Shown here piece by piece: positions 5,187-63,999 of a stretch of 64,000 bases of DNA. The translations under genes were made by a program, and so were the position numbers. The notes beneath the pieces are model-generated. The model made no database searches. It was not told where the DNA came from and saw only the letters and a list, made by a program, of their open reading frames with translations. The DNA is from Lachnospiraceae bacterium (lineage in GTDB: Bacteria > Bacillota > Clostridia > Lachnospirales > Lachnospiraceae): NCBI GenBank assembly GCA_014804795.1, contig JAAUZC010000041.1, positions 1 through 64,000 of the forward strand. Direction: 5' to 3'. Each line of letters begins with the position of its first letter. Position 1 is the first letter of the stretch.

Positions 5187-6827
5187 ATGATAAGTGCAAA
5201 CAATGTAACCTACAGAGTGGGCAAGAAAGCCCTTTTTGAAGATGTAAACATTAAATTTACAGAAGGCAACTGCTATGGTATCATCGGCGCCAACGGTGCA
5301 GGAAAGTCCACTTTTTTAAAGATTCTTTCCGGCGAACTGGAGACTACAAACGGCGATATCACTATCACGCCCGGCGAACGTCTCTCCGTATTGGAACAGG
5401 ATCACTTTAAATATGACGACTATACTGTAATGGATACGGTGATCATGGGCAATGCCAGATTATATGAAATTATGAAAGAAAAAGATGCCATCTATGCCAA
5501 GGAGGATTTTTCCGACGAGGACGGTATTCGCGCCAGTGAACTGGAAGCAGAATTTGCAGAGATGGAAGGCTGGGATGCGGATACAAATGCAGCCATGCTC
5601 TTAAACGGCCTCGGCATTGAAACGGAACTCCACAACGTACAGATGTCTGAACTGGACGGCAGCCAGAAAGTAAAGGTACTTTTAGCGAAAGCGCTTTTTG
5701 GTAATCCGGATATCCTGCTGTTAGACGAGCCCACAAACCATCTGGATTTGGACGCCATCAACTGGCTGGAAGAATTTTTGATCAGTTTCCAGAATACGAT
5801 CATCGTTGTCTCCCATGACAGGTATTTCCTGAACAAAGTCTGCACCCATACCGCAGACATCGATTACGGTAAAATTGAATTATTTGCCGGCAACTACGAT
5901 TTCTGGTACCAGTCCAGCCAGCTGATTTTAAAACAGCGCAAGGAAGCCAACAAAAAGAAAGAGGAACAGATCAAGGAACTGCAGGAATTTATTTCCCGTT
6001 TTTCCGCCAATGCTTCCAAGTCCAAACAGGCGACTTCCAGAAAACGTGCGTTAGAAAAGATTCAGTTAGATGATATCAGACCTTCCAGCCGGAAATATCC
6101 TTATATCGATTTCCGCCCCGAACGGGAAATAGGCAATGATGTACTGCTTGTGGAAAATCTTTCCAAAACCATTAACGGCGAAAAAGTACTGGACAATATC
6201 TCCTTTATTGTAGGTCATGACGACAAGATCGCCTTTGTAGGCGGAAATGAACTGGCAAAGACTACCCTGTTCCAGATTCTTTCCGGAGAGATGGAACCGG
6301 ATGAAGGTTTCTACAAATGGGGTGTGACGACCTCCCAGGCCTATTTCCCCAAGGACAGCAACACAGAATTTGACAACGACTATACGATCACGGAATGGCT
6401 CACCGCCTACTCTCCGATCAAGGATGTCACTTATGTCAGGGGATTCCTCGGGCGTATGCTGTTTGCCGGTGATGACGGCGTCAAGAAAGTAAAAGTATTG
6501 TCCGGCGGCGAACGGGTACGCTGTCTGTTGTCTAAAATGATGATCAGCGGCGCCAACTGCCTGATCTTTGACGAACCGACAAACCATCTGGACATGGAAT
6601 CCATCACCGCATTGAATGAAGGCATGAAAAAATTTCCGGGAGTAGAATTGTTTTCCTGTCATGACCATCAGGTAGTACAGACCACTGCCAACCGCATTAT
6701 GGAAATTCTGCCGGACGGCTCCTTGATCGATAAGATTACTACCTATGATGAATATCTGGAAAACGATGAGATGGCGAGAAAGAGAACCATCTACACCAAA
6801 ACTGCTTCTGACGAAGAGGATAACTGA
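5187..6827 (+). CDS. ABC-F family ATPase (YkpA/YbiT-like)
   Basis: A 546-residue soluble protein with two tandem ATP-binding cassettes and no membrane domain, as in ABC-F proteins that act on the ribosome. The first cassette has a canonical Walker A (GANGAGKST, about residues 36-44) and Walker B with LLLDEPTNHLDLD, but a degenerate signature (LDGSQKVK). The linker (about residues 245-290) is Lys/Glu-rich. In the second cassette the Walker A reads GGNELAKTT, lacking the usual Gly before Lys, while LSGGERVR and FDEPTNHLDM are intact. GAGG eight bases before the ATG supports the start. The HAD gene begins one base after the stop. It could be translation-related housekeeping or antibiotic protection; the subfamily resemblance favours housekeeping. 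Confidence 0.88.
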   Translation: MISANNVTYRVGKKALFEDVNIKFTEGNCYGIIGANGAGKSTFLKILSGELETTNGDITITPGERLSVLEQDHFKYDDYTVMDTVIMGNARLYEIMKEKDAIYAKEDFSDEDGIRASELEAEFAEMEGWDADTNAAMLLNGLGIETELHNVQMSELDGSQKVKVLLAKALFGNPDILLLDEPTNHLDLDAINWLEEFLISFQNTIIVVSHDRYFLNKVCTHTADIDYGKIELFAGNYDFWYQSSQLILKQRKEANKKKEEQIKELQEFISRFSANASKSKQATSRKRALEKIQLDDIRPSSRKYPYIDFRPEREIGNDVLLVENLSKTINGEKVLDNISFIVGHDDKIAFVGGNELAKTTLFQILSGEMEPDEGFYKWGVTTSQAYFPKDSNTEFDNDYTITEWLTAYSPIKDVTYVRGFLGRMLFAGDDGVKKVKVLSGGERVRCLLSKMMISGANCLIFDEPTNHLDMESITALNEGMKKFPGVELFSCHDHQVVQTTANRIMEILPDGSLIDKITTYDEYLENDEMARKRTIYTKTASDEEDN

Positions 6828-6828
6828 T

Positions 6829-7641
6829 ATGCATTTATTTTTCACTGATTTAGATGGTACACTGCTCACCGATGAAAAGAATATCTCTTCCAAAACAATG
6901 GAAGCAATAGATGCTTATATTTCTGCCGGGAACAAGTTCATTATTGCTTCCGGCAGACCTTTTAACAATATCCGGGATGTGTTAAAGCGGACAGGACTCG
7001 ACCGTTATCAGAACCTTTTGCTGATCTGTTACAACGGTTCTGTTATCTACGACTGCGGAGCGGAAAAATATCTTGTAGATCTCAGGCTGGATCCCAAAGA
7101 TGTTCTGCATATTATCGACACGGCTGAGGAAATGGGCATTCACTGTCAGACTTATTCTTCCAAAAAGGTCGTCAGCAGGCATCAGGGCATCGAAACAGAC
7201 TATTATACGAAACAAACACAGTTAGAATATATTTTTGACAGAGACATACTCTCTCATCTTGACGAAGCTCCCCGCAAAGCGCTGGCAATCTCCATGGATC
7301 ACCGCGAAAAACTGGAACAGTTAAAAGAAAAGCTCGCTCCCTGGATGGAAGGAAAGCTGACCACCGTATTTTCCTGTCCGGAATATCTGGAATTTGTGGA
7401 CTACCGCTCCGGCAAGGGAAACGCTGTCAGATATGTCTGTGATTTATATCATATACCTGTCACAGATGCCTATGCAGCAGGGGATGCCAATAATGACTTG
7501 TCCATGCTGCAGGCAGTCGGCAACAGTATCGCCATGATAAACGGCAGTAATGAAGTAAAAGCGATTTCTTCTATCATTACCGAAGAAGACAATAATCATG
7601 ACGGGCTGGCGGGGATACTGCTTCAGCTCGCAAAAAAATAG
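6829..7641 (+). CDS. HAD-superfamily Cof-type sugar phosphatase
   Basis: A 270-residue haloacid-dehalogenase hydrolase of the Cof/YbjI class. Motif I is DLDGTLLT at residues 6-13, motif II is the SGRP segment, and motif IV is AGDANNDLSM near residue 222; the C2-type cap lies between. Start 6829 is chosen because it places motif I at the N terminus and follows the ABC-F stop by one base; an upstream in-frame ATG lies inside the ABC-F gene. Members dephosphorylate sugar phosphates or flavin intermediates; the true substrate cannot be told from sequence. Confidence 0.9.
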   Translation: MHLFFTDLDGTLLTDEKNISSKTMEAIDAYISAGNKFIIASGRPFNNIRDVLKRTGLDRYQNLLLICYNGSVIYDCGAEKYLVDLRLDPKDVLHIIDTAEEMGIHCQTYSSKKVVSRHQGIETDYYTKQTQLEYIFDRDILSHLDEAPRKALAISMDHREKLEQLKEKLAPWMEGKLTTVFSCPEYLEFVDYRSGKGNAVRYVCDLYHIPVTDAYAAGDANNDLSMLQAVGNSIAMINGSNEVKAISSIITEEDNNHDGLAGILLQLAKK

Positions 7642-7651
7642 TATATTATCT

Positions 7652-8620
7652 TTATATGTAAAGTAATACTAACGCCAGTATCAGCCCTATCAAAATACTG
7701 ATAATCCCCGATGTCATATTAAAACTTCTGCGATTGCAGTAATACTGATTATGTGCCGGGGGCACTGCCGCATAGGGTACTTGCATGGCGTCTAACATCG
7801 CCAGAAAATCCGCGGCCCTCTTACTCATATATTCATGCAGCCCAAAGCTGACAGTCTGGGCAAACCAGTGTTTCGCCTCCTGCAGATTATTCATATTGTA
7901 TTCCAGTCTGCCCATGTAATAACAATATCTGACAAACTCATACCTGCTGCCGAGCCTGCCCGCTGCATACAGGTTCAGCATGTCTGCCTTGATCATGTCA
8001 TTCTTACCGGCAAATATCATATCCCGGAAATTGAGTTCCTGCAAAAAAGTCATCGCCTGCGCCTGCAGTCTTCGTTTCACCTGAATATTATGGATCCAGT
8101 TGTTGCGAAATGCATCCATACAAATATGAAAATTCCTCGTATCTTCCAACTCCGCATAAAACCTGCACCAGAAATAATCATATACCATTCTTGCTCTGTT
8201 ATTTAACCGTTCATACTGCGGCTTTATTTCCATCAGATTATGGTAGGCCGCATCAAAATCCCCCATCAGCAGATAGGCCTCTGTGCAATTGACACGCTGG
8301 CTCCGCCTCACACCCGGAAACTGAAACTTTTCCAGAAATTTCATACATTCCAGATAAGCATCAAAGTCACATTCCTGCGTCGCTATGGTCCGTAAATTAT
8401 AATTGCGCATCGCAACCAGTATAAAATACACATAAATAAGCCAGCATAACAGCAACGACATGGCAAGCGGATTATAATACGGGGTATATACCCTCTGGTA
8501 GCGACGCTGCAAATAGCCTCCACCCATTACTACGATCACCACTAACACCGGCCACACTAACGTCATCAACACATGAAGCGTCTTAACTCCCCTGACACTT
8601 TTTTTCACCGTTTTTGTCAT
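7652..8620 (-). CDS. Membrane protein of unknown function with helical-repeat core
   Basis: A 322-residue protein I do not recognise. Residues about 15-40 and 50-72 form two membrane spans, and residues 300-322 form a third at the very C terminus. The long middle part is helical, rich in Tyr/Phe/Met and resembles degenerate TPR units (for example AYLLMGDFDAAYHNL and MGRLEYNMNNLQEAKHWF). A YKR-rich segment follows the first span. AAGGAT upstream of the ATG supports the start. It begins eight bases after the small acidic protein gene, so the two are probably co-transcribed. A scaffold for protein contacts at the membrane is only an inference. Confidence 0.7.
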   Translation of the reverse strand: MTKTVKKSVRGVKTLHVLMTLVWPVLVVIVVMGGGYLQRRYQRVYTPYYNPLAMSLLLCWLIYVYFILVAMRNYNLRTIATQECDFDAYLECMKFLEKFQFPGVRRSQRVNCTEAYLLMGDFDAAYHNLMEIKPQYERLNNRARMVYDYFWCRFYAELEDTRNFHICMDAFRNNWIHNIQVKRRLQAQAMTFLQELNFRDMIFAGKNDMIKADMLNLYAAGRLGSRYEFVRYCYYMGRLEYNMNNLQEAKHWFAQTVSFGLHEYMSKRAADFLAMLDAMQVPYAAVPPAHNQYYCNRRSFNMTSGIISILIGLILALVLLYI

Positions 8621-8628
8621 ATATTCTT

Positions 8629-8895
8629 TTATCCTTCCACTATGAGATAACGTCCGTCTCCTATATCAAAGACTTCCAGGGCTTCCAGGATACTCTCCAC
8701 GTCCGCCTCCTCCGTATCTATCCCCTGCTCCTCAAAATATTCCAGTACTTCTTCCGCTGATTCGGCGATCACAGCCATACAATCTTCCAGAAAAGCTTCC
8801 GCTTCGCTTTCATTTTCCGCCACATCTTCCGGAAATAACTGCCTTTGATTTTCTAAAAAACAGAGAATGGCAGCATCATCATATTCGTAAGTCAT
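8629..8895 (-). CDS. Small acidic protein of unknown function
   Basis: An 88-residue, strongly acidic protein beginning MTYEYDDAAILCFLENQRQL and ending in DIGDGRYLIVEG. I choose the ATG at 8895, preceded by an AGGTTGG-like site; the open frame extends to 9138, but that part overlaps ppk antisense to nothing useful and has the low-complexity, Arg/Gly-rich look of out-of-frame translation. The sequence is dominated by Glu and Ala and predicted helices. It lies between ppk and the membrane protein gene in the same direction. No family is recognised. Confidence 0.65.
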   Translation of the reverse strand: MTYEYDDAAILCFLENQRQLFPEDVAENESEAEAFLEDCMAVIAESAEEVLEYFEEQGIDTEEADVESILEALEVFDIGDGRYLIVEG

Positions 8896-8948
8896 ACCAT
8901 TTACCAACCTTTCCTCGTTGTTTAAAAACCAATTTATATCTGCACACT

Positions 8949-11078
8949 TTATTCCACATGCACTTCCGGAACAAAAACCCTCTCTCCGGCGCCGTAACCC
9001 TTTTTCTTTACCAGTCCGGCTGCTTCCTCGCAAAATGTATCCTGTGCGCAAAACGGCTCCTGCACGCGCCTGTTCACCTTTTCGTAGTTGCCCTCCGGCG
9101 TCAGTATGTGAGCTTTCATATTGTCTTTCAACTGACATTCCAGAATGTGTATCGCTTTCTGTTTCAGGCCTTCTTTCTCCACCGGGAACATGATCTCCAC
9201 CCGGCGTTCCAGATTTCTCGGCATCCAGTCGGAACTTGCACAGTACACCTCCGGCTTTCCGTCATTCTCAAAATAAAAGATCCTCGCATGTTCCAGGAAA
9301 TTGCCCACAATGGAACGTACTGTTATATTCTCACTGACACCCGGGATTCCCGTCTTCAGACAACAGATTCCCCGTACGATCAGCTCGATCTTTACACCCG
9401 CGGCAGAAGCATCATAGAGTGCCATAATGACATCCCTGTCACAAAGAGCATTCATCTTTGCGATAATATGACTGTGATGTCCTTTCAGCGCATAATCCCT
9501 CTCCCTGTCTATCAGGGAAATGAAACGGTCCTTTAACCACAGAGGCGCCACTGCAAGTTTATTCCAGCTTCTGGGTTCCGAGTAACCGGAAAGCATATTG
9601 AATACCGCTGTCGCATCCTCACCAATCTGCTCATTGCAGGTCATAAGCCCTACATCCGTATAGAGTTTTGCGGTGGAATCGTTGTAGTTTCCCGTTCCAA
9701 GGTGCACATACCGCCTGATGCCATCCTCTTCTCTCCGCACCACAAGCGTGATCTTACAGTGGGTCTTTAGGCCTACCAGCCCATAAATCACATGGCAGCC
9801 CGCTTTCTCCAGCCGTTTTGCCCAGAGAATGTTGTTTTCCTCATCAAACCGTGCTTTTAATTCCACTAATACAGTAACCTGTTTTCCGTTCTCCGCCGCC
9901 TGCTCTAATGCCGCAATGATCGGAGAGTTTCCGCTGACTCTGTAAAGTGTCTGCTTGATGGCAAGCACCTCGCTGTCCCTTGAAGCCTGTCTCACAAAAT
10001 CAACCACCGGCTCAAAGGTCTGATAAGGATGATGCAGGAAAATATCATGCTGTCTGATCTGAGAAAAAATATCTCCCTCCTCCAGAAATTCCGGTATGGG
10101 CTGCGGCGTGTATTTCGGTGTTTTCAGATTGTCATACCCTTCTAAGCCGTAGATCTTCATAAGCACAGTCAGGTCAAGCGGTCCTTTTATGGCGTAGACA
10201 TCTTCTTCCTGTACCATCAGTTCCTCTTCTAAAATTTTTAACAGTTTCTCATCTATGCCAGCTTCTGTCTCCAGCCTGATGACCTGTCCCCACTGCCTTT
10301 TCTTCAACTGCTTTTCAATCTCTTTTAGCAGATCTTCGGCTTCATCCTCCTCAATGCTGAGATCTGCATTCCTCATAATACGGAACGGCCATACACATTC
10401 GATATCATAATTCAAAAACAGCCTGTCAATGTTGCGCTCAATGATCTGTTCCAGAAAGATCAGGCATTTCTTGCCCTCCGCATCATTCGGGATTTCTACA
10501 ACTCTCGAAAGCACACCCGGCACCTGCACTGTGGCAAATTCCACCTCGCCTTTCCCCTGTTTTTTCCTGACGAGCGCCCCCAGATTTAATGTCTTATTTC
10601 TCACAAGCGGGAAGGGTCTTGAAGAATCCACCGCCATCGGCGTCAGCACCGGATAAACATTGTCCAGAAAATAACGGTCCACATATGCCGCCTGCTTATC
10701 CGTCAGCTCTTCATGATGCCCTACGATCCTCACACCTGCTTCCAAAAGCCCGGGCAGAAGCTGCTTATTATATACCTGATACTGCTCTTTTACAAGCGCA
10801 TGCGTCACCTTGTTCAAGGCTTCCAGCTGCTCTTTCGGCTTCATGCCCGCAATATCCGGCTTATTGTATTTCGCATTCACCATGTCCTTCAGGGACGCCA
10901 CCCGCACCATGAAAAATTCATCCAAATTGGATGCGGTAATGCTCAAAAACTTCAGGCGCTCAAACAGCGGAAGCTTCACATCTTTCGCCTCGCTGAGCAC
11001 TCTCCTGTTAAACATGATCCAACTCAGTTCTCTGTTTGTATAATATGACGGATTTGTAAAATCCTTTTTCTCTCCCAT
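8949..11078 (-). CDS. ppk: Polyphosphate kinase
   Basis: PPK1 reversibly polymerises the gamma phosphate of ATP into polyphosphate. The 709-residue length is typical. The N-terminal domain starts NRELSWIMFNRRVLSEA; the active-site region contains GLKTHCKITLVVRR, whose His (about residue 440) is the autophosphorylated residue in the family. The second catalytic phospholipase-D-like domain shows VRGICCLKTG and the FLEHARIFYF motif with the second conserved His. AGGGG precedes the ATG. A Ppx/GppA-type exopolyphosphatase gene lies 122 bases upstream in the same direction, so synthesis and breakdown of polyphosphate are encoded side by side. Confidence 0.96.
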   Translation of the reverse strand: MGEKKDFTNPSYYTNRELSWIMFNRRVLSEAKDVKLPLFERLKFLSITASNLDEFFMVRVASLKDMVNAKYNKPDIAGMKPKEQLEALNKVTHALVKEQYQVYNKQLLPGLLEAGVRIVGHHEELTDKQAAYVDRYFLDNVYPVLTPMAVDSSRPFPLVRNKTLNLGALVRKKQGKGEVEFATVQVPGVLSRVVEIPNDAEGKKCLIFLEQIIERNIDRLFLNYDIECVWPFRIMRNADLSIEEDEAEDLLKEIEKQLKKRQWGQVIRLETEAGIDEKLLKILEEELMVQEEDVYAIKGPLDLTVLMKIYGLEGYDNLKTPKYTPQPIPEFLEEGDIFSQIRQHDIFLHHPYQTFEPVVDFVRQASRDSEVLAIKQTLYRVSGNSPIIAALEQAAENGKQVTVLVELKARFDEENNILWAKRLEKAGCHVIYGLVGLKTHCKITLVVRREEDGIRRYVHLGTGNYNDSTAKLYTDVGLMTCNEQIGEDATAVFNMLSGYSEPRSWNKLAVAPLWLKDRFISLIDRERDYALKGHHSHIIAKMNALCDRDVIMALYDASAAGVKIELIVRGICCLKTGIPGVSENITVRSIVGNFLEHARIFYFENDGKPEVYCASSDWMPRNLERRVEIMFPVEKEGLKQKAIHILECQLKDNMKAHILTPEGNYEKVNRRVQEPFCAQDTFCEEAAGLVKKKGYGAGERVFVPEVHVE

Positions 11079-11200: not shown

Positions 11201-12745
11201 TTAAAAGCTCTTCTTCTGGCGAATCACCGGTCTGATACTGTATACCTCTTCAAAAAAGTCAGCCCGTTTTGTAAAAAGCCCCCTCTCCAGCGTAATGTCC
11301 GCCGCCGTGGCTACCTGGATCACAAGCTGTCCGTCTTTTACTACCGTCTTAATATCTTTAAATTTCTGCTTATGGCTTCTGTCAAGGCCATTTGCCACCC
11401 GCAGAATAGCTGTCAGTTTTGCTACCACCAGATAAGCGTTTTCATCAAGAGTGCTTTCCTTTTCCGCCGCATTGTAATATATGAAGGGCTCATGGTTGTA
11501 TTTTACCACATTCGCCACAATCTCCCGTTCTTTATGGGAAAGCCCGATAATTTCTGTGGACATGATAATATTATAGGAACATTCTCCCAGATTGACCATA
11601 CTGATATATTTTCCGCAGTCATGAAGCCTTGTGGCAAGCTGCAGAAGAAGCCGTTCCCGTTTTCCCAGTCCGTGGATACGCCTCATACTGTCAAAGATCG
11701 TGAGTGCAATCCGCTCTAACGTTTCCCCCCGCTTTTTGCTTCCCATATAGCGCTTGCTGATATTTTCGGCGCTGGAGAGAATATCCGTCTCGAAATCGTG
11801 CTCCACTTTGAATATTTTATGCTGCTCCGCATATTCATAGGCAATTCCGTCACATAACGTTACACCCGGCGCCCACAGAAGCGATGCATCCATCATTTTC
11901 ACAATCCGCTTCACAAGAACTGCAGAGATAAACAACAGTATTGCATTTTCTCTCGGAATATTCAAAGCTCTGGCAATTTCCGGCAGAGTCCTTGACTGTA
12001 CCGACTCCAAAAAACTCATATAAGTCCCGGTTTCGATCACGCCCGGTCTCTCCTTTGTGATCACAGGATTTTGCAGGATCACCGACAGATAATCATCAAC
12101 CAGGATAATATTCTCAACTTTGCAGTCTTTTAAATACATTTTTTTAAATACAGAGAGCTGAGCCGAGGCAAGTTCGTCAATCAGCCCTTCTATTTTTGCA
12201 GAAGTCGTATTTAAATGATTTAACCTCTCCTGCAGCCGCAATACACCGAGACGCATACTCTGCGTAGATATCAGACTCCCCTTTTCAAACAGGGAAATCT
12301 GGAGACCGCTGCCGCCGATATCCACAATAGCGGTACCCTTTTCCGTAATCTTATTAAAATCTTCTGTTTTGGATGCTATGGATTTGTAATCCATAAAACG
12401 CTGCTCGGAATTGCTCAAGATATCTATCCTGATTCCGGTCCGCTGCCTGATCTGATCCAGCAAAATTTTCGTGTTCAGCGTTTCTCGGATAGCGCTGGTG
12501 CCGCAAGCCTTATAATCGTTTACTTTATAGGCTTTCATAATATTCTGAAACTCATTCAGAATAGTGCACAGTTCATTGACTGTTTCATAGGAGAGCTTGC
12601 CCTCCGCGTAGGTATCGCTTCCCAGATCCAGCCGATATCTGATGTCGTCCACCTGTTTCATGCCGCCCTTGCCGGACATCTCAAATATTTTCATTTCCAG
12701 ATCATAGGAACCTATATCGATCGCCGCAAATGTTGTGATTGCCAC
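11201..12745 (-). CDS. Ppx/GppA phosphatase with C-terminal HD domain
   Basis: A 514-residue protein. The N-terminal part has the actin/ASKHA-like phosphatase fold of Ppx/GppA: AAIDIGSYDLEMKIFEM at the start and the phosphate-binding segment AIVDIGGSGLQISLF near residue 140. The C-terminal part carries an HD-type motif (LATRLHDCGKYISMV, about residue 375), as in long exopolyphosphatases. It would hydrolyse polyphosphate ends or the 5' phosphate of pppGpp. Position next to ppk favours polyphosphate. The S in DIGSYDL replaces the usual N of DIGSNS, a variation worth noting. Confidence 0.88.
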   Translation of the reverse strand: MAITTFAAIDIGSYDLEMKIFEMSGKGGMKQVDDIRYRLDLGSDTYAEGKLSYETVNELCTILNEFQNIMKAYKVNDYKACGTSAIRETLNTKILLDQIRQRTGIRIDILSNSEQRFMDYKSIASKTEDFNKITEKGTAIVDIGGSGLQISLFEKGSLISTQSMRLGVLRLQERLNHLNTTSAKIEGLIDELASAQLSVFKKMYLKDCKVENIILVDDYLSVILQNPVITKERPGVIETGTYMSFLESVQSRTLPEIARALNIPRENAILLFISAVLVKRIVKMMDASLLWAPGVTLCDGIAYEYAEQHKIFKVEHDFETDILSSAENISKRYMGSKKRGETLERIALTIFDSMRRIHGLGKRERLLLQLATRLHDCGKYISMVNLGECSYNIIMSTEIIGLSHKEREIVANVVKYNHEPFIYYNAAEKESTLDENAYLVVAKLTAILRVANGLDRSHKQKFKDIKTVVKDGQLVIQVATAADITLERGLFTKRADFFEEVYSIRPVIRQKKSF

Positions 12746-58723: not shown

Positions 58724-60040
58724 TTATACAAACATTTGTTGCAACAATCCCTTCTTGATTGTTTTTAGCTGTTCCAAATACACTTTTTCTTGTTGCAACA
58801 CCTTATCTATAGCAGATAAGCAGTCTGCAATTTTCTGTTGTTCTTCAAGGCATGGAAATGGCAGTTTAAATTTATTCATATCTGATGACAGAATATGCTT
58901 AACTGTATTTCCAGTTTTCAATATCTCTAACTTTTTCTTTCCAACATCGGACAAAAAATACTTTGCAACATAATGTGAATCTGCCTTTCCACCATTGCTC
59001 ATAATGATAAGTGCATGACAATTTGATCCTGCATATTTGGAACCTACTACAGCACAATCTCCAACATGACCAGATTGAACCATTACTATATCATCGGATT
59101 TTAACTCATTCTTTTTATGCTTTTGATGAAACTCCTTAGTGACATACACCTCAACATTATCATCAATTCTTCCATTATGAATATTTGTTCCTTCTATATA
59201 TCTAACTCCATGCTCTTTATCAGAAAAATGATCTGTTACTATCCCAACAAATCCATTTCTAATAAAGGGAAATTCTTCACTTAAAATTTTCTCTTCCCAA
59301 TCTGGATATTTTTCTCCATCTTTGTTCTTAAACTTTACTCTTCCTTCAAAAATATCATTTAATAGTCCTCTATTATATGTCTCTAGGATTGAGATGTTGG
59401 ATTCCTGTTCTTTTATCATTTTATTTATTACAACCAAAAACTTAGAAATTTTTTCCTGTTCTTCAAATGTTGGCACAGATATAGTTGTTGTAGCTATTGA
59501 AGTTTTACTAATTGAAGAAACTTTAATACCCGTTATAAGTGGAATTAATTGTTTATGAAAACTTTTGGAATTCATATAAAATCCTAAAAACATTGGAGCG
59601 AATTTTCTTTTAGGTCTACATGGAATTGTATGTAAACCTGATAGAATTTTTTGCTCTTTTGCATTTGAGATTTCTGTTACTTTACCAACAGTTTCATCTT
59701 CTGCCGTATCTGCAATTATTATATCTCCATCTTTTAGGTAGCTTTCTGCTTTAAACTTTGATAAGGTGTTTTCACCATTGATAAATGGAATACATTTTTG
59801 TTGAACATTTATATACTCATCAAATTTAATCAAAATATCTCCATAATGGATATTTTTTGTATTGCCATCTTTATAATTCAAATCTGCCCTTGTATAAGTA
59901 TTATTTTGTAATATATCAAATATGTCATTAAAAGAAATTTTATCCCAAAAGGTATTGAATTCAGGAAATCGAAGTTTAGGGACTTCCTTTTTCTTTATAA
60001 TTGGGGACATATTATTATCTAAAACAGTATTTTCTGCCAT
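58724..60040 (-). CDS. hsdS: Type I restriction-modification specificity subunit (expressed copy)
   Basis: A 438-residue HsdS with two target-recognition domains, each followed by a conserved helical spacer. TRD1 covers about residues 25-180 and ends in VPTFEEQEKISKFLVVINKM; TRD2 covers about 240-400 and ends in FPCLEEQQKIADCLSAIDKV and the terminal KKGLLQQMFV. I choose the ATG at 60040 with AAGGA nine bases upstream. The first ten residues (MAENTVLDNN) come before the shared MSPII start, where a 17-bp sequence identical to one in the inverted copy begins. It lies downstream of and co-directional with the recombinase gene, within an invertible arrangement. No hsdM or hsdR is in the window. 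Confidence 0.93.
   Translation of the reverse strand: MAENTVLDNNMSPIIKKKEVPKLRFPEFNTFWDKISFNDIFDILQNNTYTRADLNYKDGNTKNIHYGDILIKFDEYINVQQKCIPFINGENTLSKFKAESYLKDGDIIIADTAEDETVGKVTEISNAKEQKILSGLHTIPCRPKRKFAPMFLGFYMNSKSFHKQLIPLITGIKVSSISKTSIATTTISVPTFEEQEKISKFLVVINKMIKEQESNISILETYNRGLLNDIFEGRVKFKNKDGEKYPDWEEKILSEEFPFIRNGFVGIVTDHFSDKEHGVRYIEGTNIHNGRIDDNVEVYVTKEFHQKHKKNELKSDDIVMVQSGHVGDCAVVGSKYAGSNCHALIIMSNGGKADSHYVAKYFLSDVGKKKLEILKTGNTVKHILSSDMNKFKLPFPCLEEQQKIADCLSAIDKVLQQEKVYLEQLKTIKKGLLQQMFV
59364..59407 (-). repeat. 44-bp inverted repeat between TRDs, copy in hsdS
   Basis: This sequence is the exact reverse complement of 61628-61671 in hsdS'. It encodes the central spacer (QESNISILETYNRGL) between the two TRDs. 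Identity over 44 bases where flanking sequence differs points to gene exchange or recombination at this spot. Confidence 0.95.
59993..60009 (-). repeat. 17-bp inverted repeat at the shared start, copy in hsdS
   Basis: TGTCCCCAATTATAAAG on the minus strand, identical to 61125-61141 on the plus strand. It starts at the second base of the internal ATG codon (S-P-I-I-K) of hsdS. Beyond it the two genes diverge into different TRD1 sequences. Confidence 0.95.
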
Positions 60041-60121
60041 ATTCATTTCCTTTCTACTGACTTTATCATTTATATATTATAGCATACATTTTACCGCTAA
60101 TTAAGAGGATTTTGCATTATC

Positions 60122-61057
60122 TTATAGCATACTATTCAGAGATTCCATACACTTTCTTGATTGTGCTAGGTTGCTACGACCATATACCTTCAAAGTAAAT
60201 GAGGGATTTTTATGTCCCATTACATATGCCAAACTTTTAATATCAAATTCTGGATTTTCTATTGCTCTAGTTGCAAATGTATGCCTTAGTCCATGAAATT
60301 TGATTTGTGGCAATTCATTTTTTCTCATAAAATTTTTGTAGTATCTCCTATAAGTTCTTGGTTCCGTATAATCTTTTGTTCCAGTAAGTACATAATAATT
60401 GTTTTTATTTTGAACTTTTTGCATTATCAAAGCTAATTGAGATGGTATTGGAATTATTCTATAAGAAGATTCTGTTTTAGGTGGACCAATGACTATTTTA
60501 CTTTTGCAACCTTTTTTATAAATTCTTTGTAATGTTTTGTTTATTGTTATTGTTTTGTCATCAAAATTAATGTCACTCCATTTCAAAGCACATAGTTCAC
60601 CAATTCGTAGGCTACAAAAAGAACTAATAAGTAATCCAACAGATTTTGGTGTTAAATCTAAATAAACTGCTTGTACTAATTTATGCTGTTCTTCTTTAGT
60701 CAAAGTTACTATTTGATTATCTATATATATTTTGGGATATTTTAAATCAAAAACAGGTTTATCTATCAGATTCTTCCTTGCCGCTTCTTTTAATGATAAT
60801 TTTACAACAAGAATTATATCTCTGATTGTTGTAATTGCAAGTCCTCCAGTTCCATCTAATTTTCCTTCTTTTGAAAGATAATAAATAAATTCCTGTATAG
60901 AATTGTTATCTACCTCTTTAAGACTACAATCCTTAAAATAAGGAATAATATGATTCTGAATGTGCAAATCAAAACTAGCACACGATGATTCCTTAATTAA
61001 ATTTTCTTGTTCTGACATCCATGTTTTTAACCAATCTTTAAATAATAAATCTTTCAT
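60122..61057 (-). CDS. Tyrosine recombinase of the hsdS inversion locus
   Basis: A 311-residue phage-integrase-family recombinase. Catalytic residues are visible: Arg151 (CSLRIGELCALKW), His255 and Arg258 (FHGLRHTFATRA), His282 (GHKNPSFTLKV) and Tyr292 (VYGRSN). An N-terminal SAM-like core-binding domain covers residues about 10-90. AGGAG precedes the ATG; a TATAAT box lies at 61093-61098 on the minus strand, next to a dyad (AATTTAC...GTAAATT, about 61101-61119). Lying between two inverted hsdS copies, it likely catalyses their inversion, as CreX/PsrA-type recombinases do in streptococcal loci. It is co-transcribed with hsdS. Confidence 0.9.
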   Translation of the reverse strand: MKDLLFKDWLKTWMSEQENLIKESSCASFDLHIQNHIIPYFKDCSLKEVDNNSIQEFIYYLSKEGKLDGTGGLAITTIRDIILVVKLSLKEAARKNLIDKPVFDLKYPKIYIDNQIVTLTKEEQHKLVQAVYLDLTPKSVGLLISSFCSLRIGELCALKWSDINFDDKTITINKTLQRIYKKGCKSKIVIGPPKTESSYRIIPIPSQLALIMQKVQNKNNYYVLTGTKDYTEPRTYRRYYKNFMRKNELPQIKFHGLRHTFATRAIENPEFDIKSLAYVMGHKNPSFTLKVYGRSNLAQSRKCMESLNSML

Positions 61058-61123
61058 AATATAAAGCTCCTTTCTATTTTTTGAAACCCTATATTATACA
61101 AATTTACTATTTGTAAATTAGAA

Positions 61124-62320
61124 GTGTCCCCAATTATAAAGTTTAAAGATGAAGCTGGAAATAATTATCCAGAATGGACAATACAAAAAGTAAAAGATCT
61201 TTTTGAAATTACTAGAGGATGTGTTTTAGCTGCTGATAATGTTAAAATAAGCAAGGGTCAAACACATCCATACCCTGTTTATTCCTCGCAAACAAAAAAC
61301 AATGGATTAATGGGATATTATGATAAATATCTTTATGAAAATGCTATTACATGGACTACAGATGGTGCAAATGCTGGAACTGTCAATTTTAGAGAAGGAA
61401 AATTTTATTGCACTAATGTTTGTGGTGTATTATTAAATAAAGATGGTTATGCAAATAAATGTATTGCTGAAATAATTGGCTGTATAAGCAAACGATATGT
61501 TTCATATGTGGGGAATCCGAAATTGATGAATAATGTAATGTCTGAAATTTCAATTTTAATACCCTGTCTCAAAGAGCAAGAGAAAATAGCATCTTTCTTA
61601 ACAAGTATAGATAACTTAATCTCTACTCAGGAATCCAACATCTCAATCCTAGAGACATATAATAGAGGACTGATTTCTAAAATTTTAAATCAAGAAATCA
61701 GATTTAAAGATACTGATGGGAATGATTACTCTGGTTGGTCTGAAAAAACATTTGATGAATTGGCTGATTATAAAAAAGGACCTTTTGGAAGTGCCCTAAA
61801 AAAAGAAATATTCGTTCCTAAATCCAATACCACAAAAAAGGTATATGAACAACAACATGCTATAGAAAAGGATTGTAGCATAGAAAGATATTTTATTACT
61901 AATGAATACTACGAAAAAATGAAATCTTTTTCTGTTAAAAAAGGCGATATAATTGTTTCTTGTGCTGGAACTATTGGAGAAATTTATGTTTTACCATCAA
62001 ATACAGAAGATGGAATCATAAATCAAGCACTAATGAGAGTAAGAATAAACAATAAAATCATAAACCAAAAATTTTTCATTACTATTTTTGATAACATGAT
62101 TTCAACTAAAGGTAAAAAACTCAGCAATGGTTCTGCATTAAAAAATATACCACCTTTTGCTGATTTGAAAAAGCAAATTACTTTAGTTCCCTGCCTTGAA
62201 GAGCAGGAAAAAATCTCCAATTTCCTTACATCCTTAGACAATGTATTACAGGAAGAAAAGAATTACCTCGAATATTTAAAAACACTCAAAAAAGGACTTC
62301 TGCAACAGATGTTTGTATAG
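61124..62320 (+). CDS. Inverted, promoterless hsdS' (silent specificity cassette)
   Basis: A 398-codon open frame from GTG encoding SPIIKFKDEAGNNYPEWTIQ and two TRDs different from those of hsdS, ending in the same spacer-type sequence (CLEEQEKISNFLTSLDNV) and KKGLLQQMFV. No ribosome site precedes the GTG and no promoter points into it; homology to hsdS starts right at this point. It therefore looks like a reservoir of TRDs to be joined to the expressed start by inversion at the 17-bp or 44-bp repeats. The reading frame is intact, which argues for use rather than decay. Confidence 0.88.
   Translation: MSPIIKFKDEAGNNYPEWTIQKVKDLFEITRGCVLAADNVKISKGQTHPYPVYSSQTKNNGLMGYYDKYLYENAITWTTDGANAGTVNFREGKFYCTNVCGVLLNKDGYANKCIAEIIGCISKRYVSYVGNPKLMNNVMSEISILIPCLKEQEKIASFLTSIDNLISTQESNISILETYNRGLISKILNQEIRFKDTDGNDYSGWSEKTFDELADYKKGPFGSALKKEIFVPKSNTTKKVYEQQHAIEKDCSIERYFITNEYYEKMKSFSVKKGDIIVSCAGTIGEIYVLPSNTEDGIINQALMRVRINNKIINQKFFITIFDNMISTKGKKLSNGSALKNIPPFADLKKQITLVPCLEEQEKISNFLTSLDNVLQEEKNYLEYLKTLKKGLLQQMFV
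61125..61141 (+). repeat. 17-bp inverted repeat at the shared start, copy in hsdS'
   Basis: TGTCCCCAATTATAAAG, the partner of 59993-60009 in inverted orientation. The two copies bracket about 1.1 kb containing the hsdS start, the recombinase and its promoter. Confidence 0.95.
61628..61671 (+). repeat. 44-bp inverted repeat between TRDs, copy in hsdS'
   Basis: Partner of 59364-59407, perfectly complementary over 44 bases (from CAGGAATCC to AGAGGACT). Recombination between the two would exchange TRD1 segments while leaving TRD2 in place. Confidence 0.95.
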
Positions 62321-62324
62321 AAAG

Positions 62325-62353
62325 AGAGTGCTACTGATAAATGGTAGCACTCA
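62325..62353 (+). terminator. Terminator-like hairpin of hsdS', left copy of a 29-bp direct repeat
   Basis: GAGTGCTAC and GTAGCACTC form a 9-bp stem just after the hsdS' stop codon. The 29-base sequence recurs in the same orientation at 63971-63999 on the far side of the IS element, so it appears to have been duplicated when the element inserted. Confidence 0.8.
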
Positions 62354-63839
62354 CAGACTGTAGACAAAGAGGCTCTGGGAAATCGCTCCCAGAGCCATTT
62401 TTCTTTTATCAACCGGATTTTGTCACAAATTAAATCTTTTGATAAGTTTTCTTTCTCTAAAAGCCCCCACTTTGCCTTGATCTTTGCCAGCTTTTTCAGA
62501 TTCATGCAGGCAAATGTAAGCCCGGCTTTCATTTCCATACGGGCTTTCCCAAACATCTGCGTGTAACGAAATCCATGATTCTCTTTTGCGCTCCCAAAGA
62601 TTCGTTCTATCGTTTCTTTTCTATGGGAATATAACTCCTTCATCCCACGGGTATGGCGGATATCTTCACAGATCTCCATATAGGGTTCCCAGATATGGCG
62701 TGTTACTACCTTTACATGATCCTTACTCTGTGTGCATTGTGCAAGGCAGGGGCAGCATGCGCAGATATGGCCGCAGCTCTTGTATTCGCGGTATCCCTCC
62801 CGGTTGGTCGTGTGATAGGTCAGGACATGATCGTTTGGGCAGATATAGCAGTCATAATACTCATCATAAACATACTCATACTTTTTAAAGTAACCTTCTT
62901 TGGTCATAGGGCGTTTGTATGGCATGAGCGGTCTGATGCCCGCATCGATCAGAAGCTTTACTATACCAGGGGTCTTGTATGCGGCATCTGCTGTCAGTGT
63001 TTCTATCCCCATATCTTTTATCTTATCGTACAGAACCTTAAAAGTCCTGCTGTCGTGCTGGTTGCCGGGATGTACGCTGTAACCCAGGATCCACCCGTTT
63101 TTGTCACATGTGCTGCCTGTACCGCGTAGGCAAATACATTTTTATGTTCCCCTTTGCGGAACCATCCGCTTTCAGGATCGGAAATGCTCGCCTTGACCGT
63201 TTTTTCTTCCCCTCCGCTGCTCCCGCCGGATGGCGTGTCATCATCGCTGCCATCTTTTTCCTTCAATGGACGTTTCCCATGTGCTTCACGGTCTTCGTTG
63301 ATCTCTTTTTTCAGCAGGTCTTCAAAAAACAGGGCCTCTTCATGGGCGATACGTTTCTGCATCTTTTTATTGTTAGCCCTTGCTTTTACGTGGGTCGCAT
63401 CTACAAAGACTTCCCTGGGATCTATCAGTCTAAATTTATAACATTCCTGCAGTATATGCGAAAATATCTGTTCAAAGAGGTCCGTATCCTTAAAACGGCG
63501 GGTATAGTTTTTCCCAAATGTTGAAAAATGGGGGGTCCTGTCCATCATTTCAAGACCAAGGAACCACTGGTACGCTACATTGACTTCGATCTCCTTAACT
63601 GTCTGGCGCATACTTTTAATGCCATACAGGTATTGGATAAACGGGATCTTTATCAGCATAACGGGATCCATGCTCGGGCGGCCGCTGTCAGGACTGTACC
63701 TGTCCGCCACAAGGCCATAGATAAAGTTCCAGTCAATAGCTTTATCAATGATCCTGAGAAGATGATCCTGTGGAACCAGGTCATCCATACAGAACATCTG
63801 GATCTGTTCTCTTTTCTTATCAGCATTCTGAGTCATCAT
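62351..63839 (-). pseudogene. Frameshifted IS1182-like DDE transposase
   Basis: The gene is broken near 63109-63112: the first frame runs to GEHKNVFAYAVQAAHVT and then loses homology, whereas after removing two bases (a duplicated TG on the plus strand) the frame reads CDKNGWILGYSVHPGNQHDS and continues into IETLTADAAYKTPG. Acidic catalytic residues are in VFVDATHVKA, LTADAAYK and ETIERIFGSAKENHG. Near the 3' end the frame runs out of the element without a stop, whereas the +1 frame ends GAISQSLFVYSL with a TGA at 62351-62353, hinting at a second shift. AAGGCGG before the ATG at 63839 supports that start over one at 63869. Probably inactive. Confidence 0.85.
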
Positions 63840-63970
63840 AGAAGTATACCGCCTTTTTGATACTTCCATTATACCAGAAAACAGCTGAAAAGTCCTGAAA
63901 ACATGGGATTTCCCAGCTGATTTAAAGAGAAAAATCCGAGACTGCCGCCTCGGACTTTGTCTACAGTCTG
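62354..63970 (-). mobile_element. IS1182-family-like insertion sequence
   Basis: A 1617-bp element bounded by perfect 16-bp terminal inverted repeats CAGACTGTAGACAAAG (62354-62369 and the complement at 63955-63970) and flanked by a 29-bp direct repeat that is itself a hairpin. It carries one transposase gene on the minus strand. Family placement rests on the transposase; IS1182-type elements are known for palindromic targets and long, variable duplications. Just inside the left end lies a GGCTCTGGGA...TCCCAGAGCC hairpin, likely the element's own terminator. Confidence 0.9.
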
Positions 63971-63999
63971 AGAGTGCTACTGATAAATGGTAGCACTCA
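63971..63999 (+). repeat. Right copy of the 29-bp direct repeat flanking the IS
   Basis: Identical to 62325-62353 and in the same orientation. Because the loop (TGATAAATG) is not symmetric, the two copies are a true direct repeat and not part of the element's inverted ends. It was probably the original terminator position of hsdS' before insertion. Confidence 0.85.

Follow-up and report, generated by a model that had tools for sequence, protein, structure and literature searches.

A type I restriction-modification locus of a Lachnospiraceae bacterium with a predicted invertible start cassette between two hsdS genes

Introduction

In the inverting type I restriction-modification (R-M) loci described in the literature, the functional hsdS gene adjoins hsdM or sits in its operon, and silent copies supply domains, as far as the portions of the sources available to us go (PMC7394358, PMC7096588, PMC4948785, PMC7662400, PMC11892184). 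In the pneumococcal locus, the accessible part of the report describes inversions at a 15-bp repeat, there also named IR1, as strictly dependent on the recombinase PsrA (PMC7096588). Such systems move recognition-domain DNA into one expression site. Here, we describe a locus in which the start of the gene would instead travel together with its own recombinase. It lies in a stretch of 64,000 nucleotides (hereafter, the window), positions 1 to 64,000 of contig JAAUZC010000041.1 (C41) of Lachnospiraceae bacterium GCA_014804795.1, and comprises two genes, hsdS and hsdS', arranged head to head with a tyrosine recombinase gene between their 5' ends. It is likely that a start cassette bounded by one inverted repeat (IR1) flips between the two hsdS bodies and that a second inverted repeat (IR2) re-pairs their domains, thereby switching specificity.

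Organization of the hsdS locus

The open reading frame (ORF) list and Pfam place hsdS at positions 58724 to 60046 of the minus strand, distal to hsdM, and hsdS' at 61124 to 62320 of the plus strand, each with a Methylase_S domain. The recombinase gene (60122 to 61057, minus strand), which presumably encodes the invertase, lies within the putative invertible block. A preliminary description of this DNA had named the same three genes on the same strands, within 58724 to 62320. As assembled, hsdS is the cassette-linked copy, and hsdS' is a full-length frame without a ribosome site or a linked start cassette. Six purine motifs were sought in the 53 nt upstream of its mechanical ORF start, a GTG at 61124, and none is present (0/6), as the preliminary description had held for the ribosome site. 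Judged from its sequence, hsdS' thus represents a second hsdS lacking start signals, as is characteristic of inverting type I systems.

Upstream of hsdS, motif inspection revealed a ribosome-site-like AAAGGA (60048 to 60053, minus strand). The real start codon is probably the ATG at 60040 and not that at 60046, because the AAAGGA lies 7 nt from the former and only 1 nt from the latter, and because the related locus L047 (see below) has an ATG at the equivalent position. The gap of 75 nt between the recombinase gene and hsdS contains an extended -10 promoter-like sequence, TGCTATAAT (60076 to 60084, minus strand), which is identical in L047; the motif TGnTATAAT was found in 0.7% of 20,000 mononucleotide shuffles of this gap. 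We rate an hsdS promoter at TGCTATAAT as probable rather than firm, since the consensus promoter scan, which requires a -35 box, neither listed the site nor showed an excess.

Inverted repeats and predicted products

A perfect 17-bp inverted repeat, IR1, has one arm in hsdS codons (59993 to 60009, minus strand) and the other at the start of hsdS' (61125 to 61141, plus strand). The repeat analysis reproduced the coordinates reported for it earlier. Both arms fall at matching codons of the two genes in an identical reading frame, and they are the only two occurrences in the whole assembly, even when one mismatch is allowed. In 500 dinucleotide shuffles of both hsdS regions, the longest shared inverted match reached 16 bp (mean, 11.7), and none of the 500 attained 17 bp. 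This null ignores the homology between hsdS and hsdS', so the position, the frame, and the comparison with L047 weigh more.

A second repeat, IR2, was overlooked in the preliminary description and is not among the 25 inverted pairs listed of 49. It is a perfect 44-bp repeat with arms in the central conserved regions of hsdS (59364 to 59407, minus strand) and hsdS' (61628 to 61671, plus strand), between the recognition domains. The locus therefore has perfect repeats both ahead of the first domain (17 bp) and between the domains (44 bp), the placement expected of inverting type I systems. The repeats and in silico inversion predict two invertible segments: the IR1 segment of 1,149 bp (59993 to 61141), which would constitute the start cassette and whose hsdS-side boundary is also marked by the alignment with L047, and the IR2 segment of 2,308 bp (59364 to 61671), which would re-pair first and second recognition domains.

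In silico, four full-length products are obtained in frame, namely, 440 aa for the assembled arrangement, 410 aa after IR1 inversion, 443 aa after IR2 inversion, and 407 aa after both. These lengths are counted from the ATG at 60046; each is two residues shorter from the ATG at 60040. The preliminary description had proposed that inversion at IR1 carries the promoter region, the recombinase, and the hsdS start as one block, and this is matched both by the in silico product, in which hsdS' is in frame, and by L047, in which the block is reversed. It had also proposed a switch of the whole specificity between two outputs. The predicted IR1 switch is in frame, but because of the 44-bp IR2 the predicted outputs number four rather than two.

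A recombination core shared by IR1 and IR2 was considered and is no more than a weak lead. The best ungapped match covers 11 of 13 columns; among 2,000 random 44-mers of the locus, 34 scored 11 and 47 scored 13, and the latter probably stem from windows overlapping an IR1 arm.

Comparison with a related locus

A scan of genome_contigs for the recombinase returned 13 loci. One of these, L047, from the Lachnospiraceae bacterium metagenome-assembled genome RGIG9047 (JAGBEO010000005.1), encodes a recombinase with 93% identity, while the other 12 reach at most 32%. The hsdM and hsdR products of L047 are 98 to 99% identical at the amino acid level to those of the window genome. The orientation of hsdM relative to both hsdS bodies is unchanged in L047, and the block of promoter, recombinase, and start is reversed: window positions 59993 to 61120 align in reverse with L047 positions 11064 to 9938 (89.5%), and the distal hsdS body, 59345 to 60029, aligns directly with 6481 to 7163 (85.3%). 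In base-level alignments, the homology partner changes at IR1. The 5' region of hsdS up to IR1 corresponds to the hsdM-adjacent gene of L047, and the sequence beyond it corresponds to the distal gene; the hsdS-side breakpoint of the reversal is thus located at IR1.

The distal first domain is common to both genomes (82% amino acid identity). It is start-linked in the window and has no linked start in L047, and it therefore fits the prediction of block inversion. In L047, the cassette-bearing copy is the hsdM-adjacent one, which is still convergent with hsdM. No stop interrupts any of the four hsdS frames in the two genomes, whether or not they carry the cassette. The repeats point in the same direction. 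The arms of IR2 differ at 0 of 44 positions within either genome and at 5 of 44 between genomes, and IR1 shows one difference inside the 16 bp common to both genomes, carried by both arms of each. Since the arms agree within and differ between genomes, exchange is indicated in both lineages; independent evolution of the arms hardly fits.

Several observations weigh against a moving start cassette. The direct alignment of the distal body continues for 20 nt beyond IR1 over bases that match poorly, and IR1 is only 16 bp long in L047, because its outermost base differs between the arms. The second L047 breakpoint is visible only across an insertion, because that element sits beside the recombinase promoter. 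L047, itself a metagenome-assembled genome, is the only close comparator, and the layout was found in no more than two loci, with one orientation apiece; the window assembly contains a single arrangement. Among five loci with recombinases of 47 to 49% identity, an hsdS downstream of the recombinase was found in none (0/5), within the DNA examined. The consensus promoter scan gave 23 sites against 25.2 expected. Finally, hsdS' could conceivably be translated from its GTG at 61124, to judge by its sequence.

The insertion element in L047 (about 7145 to 9926), which we take to be IS66-like, shows an apparent 8-bp target duplication. Within the invertible segment, it separates the recombinase promoter region from the start-less hsdS, and an IR1 inversion in L047 would leave it on the silent side.

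Proposed mechanism

We propose that the cassette, bounded by IR1, carries, besides the recombinase gene, the expression signals of hsdS (probable promoter and ribosome site), its start codon, and some twelve codons. Recombination at IR1 would flip this cassette to the 5' end of the other hsdS, such that one HsdS at a time would possess start signals, with the recombinase upstream of the active gene. Recombination at IR2 would re-pair first and second recognition domains, for a predicted total of four HsdS proteins from both repeats. HsdM and HsdR would be supplied by their own hsdR-hsdM unit, which is convergent with the locus. Because of the resemblance to the pneumococcal system and the comparison with L047, we infer that the recombinase performs these inversions, and does so within populations. 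The promoter would be functional, and methylation specificity would change.

With somewhat less assurance, we think it probable that the layout is a distinct one, in which a self-mobile start cassette, which also encodes a constant N-terminal peptide, docks in frame on either hsdS body, uncoupled from hsdM transcription. None of the predicted products represents an off state, and recombinase synthesis would always be tied to the active gene. If this is true, a single HsdS at a time would be guaranteed, and the supply of HsdS would be separated from that of HsdM and HsdR. Such a locus would be misread by any search built on the premise that the expressed hsdS adjoins hsdM. In addition, with two short, well-defined sites and a segment of 1.1 kb, the locus lends itself to studies of site choice and self-regulation of the recombinase.

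The recombinase and its relatives

The recombinase has Phage_integrase and SAM-like N-terminal domains (Pfam). The catalytic R, H-x-x-R, H, and Y residues are conserved in an alignment of six proteins read by eye, in agreement with the complete R-H-R-H-Y set noted in the preliminary description, and the protein belongs to the tyrosine recombinase superfamily. It falls short of the NCBIfam equivalog cutoffs for XerC (44.6 versus 335.15 bits) and XerD (41.9 versus 329.6 bits). The ratio of nonsynonymous to synonymous substitution rates (dN/dS) relative to L047 is 0.055, and by this measure the gene is under strong purifying selection. An AGGAG at 61071 to 61067 precedes its ATG, and sequence inspection suggests TATAAT (61093 to 61098, minus strand) as a possible -10 element. 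Just 5' of this element lies a palindrome, AATTTAC-TATTT-GTAAATT (61101 to 61119), a possible operator; it is altered in L047, where it adjoins the insertion.

Searches for the recombinase covered 299 genomes of the family, 9 of the genus, 392 of the order, 391 of the class, and 398 of the phylum, at E value thresholds of 1e-30, 1e-60, 1e-62, 1e-70, and 1e-70, respectively. These were overlapping draws that include the genome itself, with few candidates scored per genome. Among the matches listed, no further genome exceeded 49% identity, and in viral_contigs no relative was found above 36%. Recombinases of 47 to 49% identity occur in five further loci: L042 (a longer version of L013), L070, L089, L090, and L043. 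In L042 and L070, the order is hsdR-hsdM-hsdS; there are four hsdS matches whose orientation alternates, with the recombinase at the far end, outside the hsdS group. L089 contains an hsdS fragment that is cut by the contig end and divergent from the recombinase, with no hsdS after the latter. In L090 and L043, both cut by contig ends near the recombinase, no hsdS match was found. An hsdS after the recombinase was thus found only in the window and L047, and from its sequence distribution the cassette layout looks derived.

Where hsdM is otherwise closest (L078, L079, and L080; 71 to 78% identity over the best hsdM segment), the stretch contains a single hsdS match and nothing that matches the recombinase. 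Among 40 distant recombinase loci (24 to 49% identity), hsdS matches were found only in L042, which is weak evidence because many of these loci hold only about 1.5 kb of flank. The presence of hsdS was examined in 6 of the 13 genome_contigs loci (L047, L048, L049, L050, L052, and L055) and in 6 of the 8 loci of the viral_contigs scan (L060 to L065); 3 of 12 plasmid records were examined and show no annotated hsdS within 6 kb. Given their four hsdS matches, multiple perfect repeats, and terminal recombinase, L042 (8836 to 13203) and L070 (3200 to 8518) are themselves candidate multiway specificity shufflons.

The remainder of the restriction-modification system

The 3' part of hsdM is located on the minus strand of contig C41, which ends at 64496; the gene ends at 64026, 26 bp past the window. 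The 5' part of hsdM forms the end of contig C13 of the same genome, and an hsdR frame of 926 aa lies ahead of it. Across both contigs, 515 of about 522 hsdM codons are present, and both parts match a single 522-aa hsdM in L047, with C13 reaching L047 position 12740 and C41 reaching 12719. As about 20 nt between the contigs is unaccounted for relative to L047, we infer their adjacency. On this basis, hsdR, an hsdM cut by the contig break, and at least two distinct hsdS genes would occupy one locus. The preliminary description had suggested an orphan or split system and had proposed looking for hsdM and hsdR beyond the insertion sequence. Both were found at ends of contigs of this genome, and the suggestion was rejected.

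This insertion sequence (62324 to 63999), which is presumably IS1182-like, lies between hsdS' and hsdM and has two separate frames, with DUF772 and DDE_Tnp_1_6. Each of its ends carries a copy of a 30-bp hairpin, in direct repeat, of which L047 has a single copy (12194 to 12223); the element landed at this hairpin. Just 5' of hsdR, both genomes encode a 90-aa protein (L011, 5553 to 5825; L047, 16669 to 16941), which is winged-helix-like by eye and a possible regulator of the R-M unit. Beyond the R-M side, identity to L047 falls from 95% to 76% or less (L011 position 4898 versus L047 position 17595), which suggests that the R-M locus was recently exchanged between species.

Alternative explanations

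The locus might invert through RecA-dependent homologous recombination or another recombinase of the cell, with the resident recombinase as a passenger. This overlaps with the proposed mechanism in everything but the agent, and the confidence we place in the alternatives overlaps accordingly with that in the mechanism itself. At 16 to 17 bp, IR1 is short for RecA. IR2, in contrast, may permit general recombination (44 bp here, 111 bp and perfect in L047), and a second recombinase match, with 34% identity, is located at C27. A less frequent class of pneumococcal inversions is independent of PsrA, according to the accessible part of the report (PMC7096588). A mere passenger would be difficult to reconcile with the strong purifying selection on the recombinase and with the presence of its 47 to 49% relatives beside hsdS in three of five loci (L042, L070, and L089), the remaining two (L043 and L090) being cut by contig ends. 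We consider this alternative unlikely. A locus that inverted in the past and is now locked, with the L047 arrangement recording an old event and hsdS' surviving as a silent relic, appears about equally doubtful. It would account for the single arrangement in each genome and for the insertion sequences that landed in both loci. However, both insertions leave the hsdS genes and the recombinase uninterrupted, the cassette-less hsdS remains an intact frame in both genomes, and the IR2 arms have stayed identical within each genome despite their 5/44 differences between genomes.

Least probable, in our judgment, is that the difference between the window and L047 arose by modular transfer of hsdS and recombinase segments between strains, without inversion on site. 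Gene parts have been exchanged, since the two genomes have different second domains in both genes and a different first domain in the hsdM-adjacent one, and the synonymous divergence (dS) of the recombinase from L047, 0.57, exceeds that of hsdM (0.13) and hsdR (0.22). Yet transfer alone does not explain why the breakpoint falls at IR1 while the distal body has kept its place and its frame.

Comparison with known systems

The SpnIII/cod locus of Streptococcus pneumoniae, with PsrA (CreX), is likewise of type I and carries several hsdS genes, a resident tyrosine recombinase, and short and longer repeats, in the part of the report available (PMC7096588). It differs from the locus studied here, in which the hsdS neighboring hsdM is convergent with it and a start cassette moves between two fixed bodies; the two are set side by side by description. 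The likeness to CreX/PsrA loci drawn in the preliminary description consequently holds for an inverting hsdS locus with a recombinase, but not for the mode of switching, as there, in the excerpts available, sequence enters a functional hsdS cotranscribed with hsdM (PMC7394358, PMC7096588).

Among the inverting loci catalogued from REBASE, the four-way Streptococcus suis type and those of Enterococcus faecalis and Listeria monocytogenes share with the window four products, a silent hsdS' lacking start and promoter, and the placement of the repeats ahead of the first domain and between the two. The Porphyromonas gingivalis and Tannerella forsythia loci differ in having a functional frame solely in the hsdS that directly follows hsdM, and the Listeria CC4 locus differs in forming an hsdR-hsdM-hsdS operon. 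With its minimum repeat length of 20 bp, the catalogue would miss IR1 (17 bp) and pass IR2. These statements follow the parts of the two sources at our disposal (PMC7394358, PMC7662400). At the present locus, the putatively expressed hsdS is not the one next to hsdM: hsdM and hsdS' converge, and the cassette copy is the distal one. Such a fixed expression site marks the described layout and not the wider kind of inverting type I system.

The clostridial loci L042 and L070 resemble the window in their related recombinase (48 to 49%), in repeats before the first domains and at the center, and in the hsdR-hsdM unit upstream. They differ in having an hsdS directly after hsdM, hsdS genes in alternating orientation, and a recombinase outside, at the far end, after which no hsdS was found.

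Outside these loci, the Hin switch of Salmonella, the sapA promoter of Campylobacter fetus, and the hsd loci of Mycoplasma pulmonis are promoter-inverting switches with the promoter or the recombinase inside the segment; through inversion, a single set of expression signals can serve different genes in turn. Hin, a serine recombinase, is encoded together with its promoter inside the invertible segment, and the sap segment is not known to carry a recombinase. The window is compared with these switches by their general description.

In the titles and opening lines of abstracts of the open-access literature searched, no moving start cassette for hsdS is described, subscription papers being mostly outside this search. 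A similar arrangement may already be recorded, because the available part of a study of human gut strains describes a group of invertons that overlap hsdS and reports enrichment of tyrosine recombinases in "regulatable" as well as nonregulatable orientations (PMC11892184). Taken together, the repeats, the recombinase, and the four-way logic of this locus are shared with known systems; the fixed expression site is the feature it does not share.

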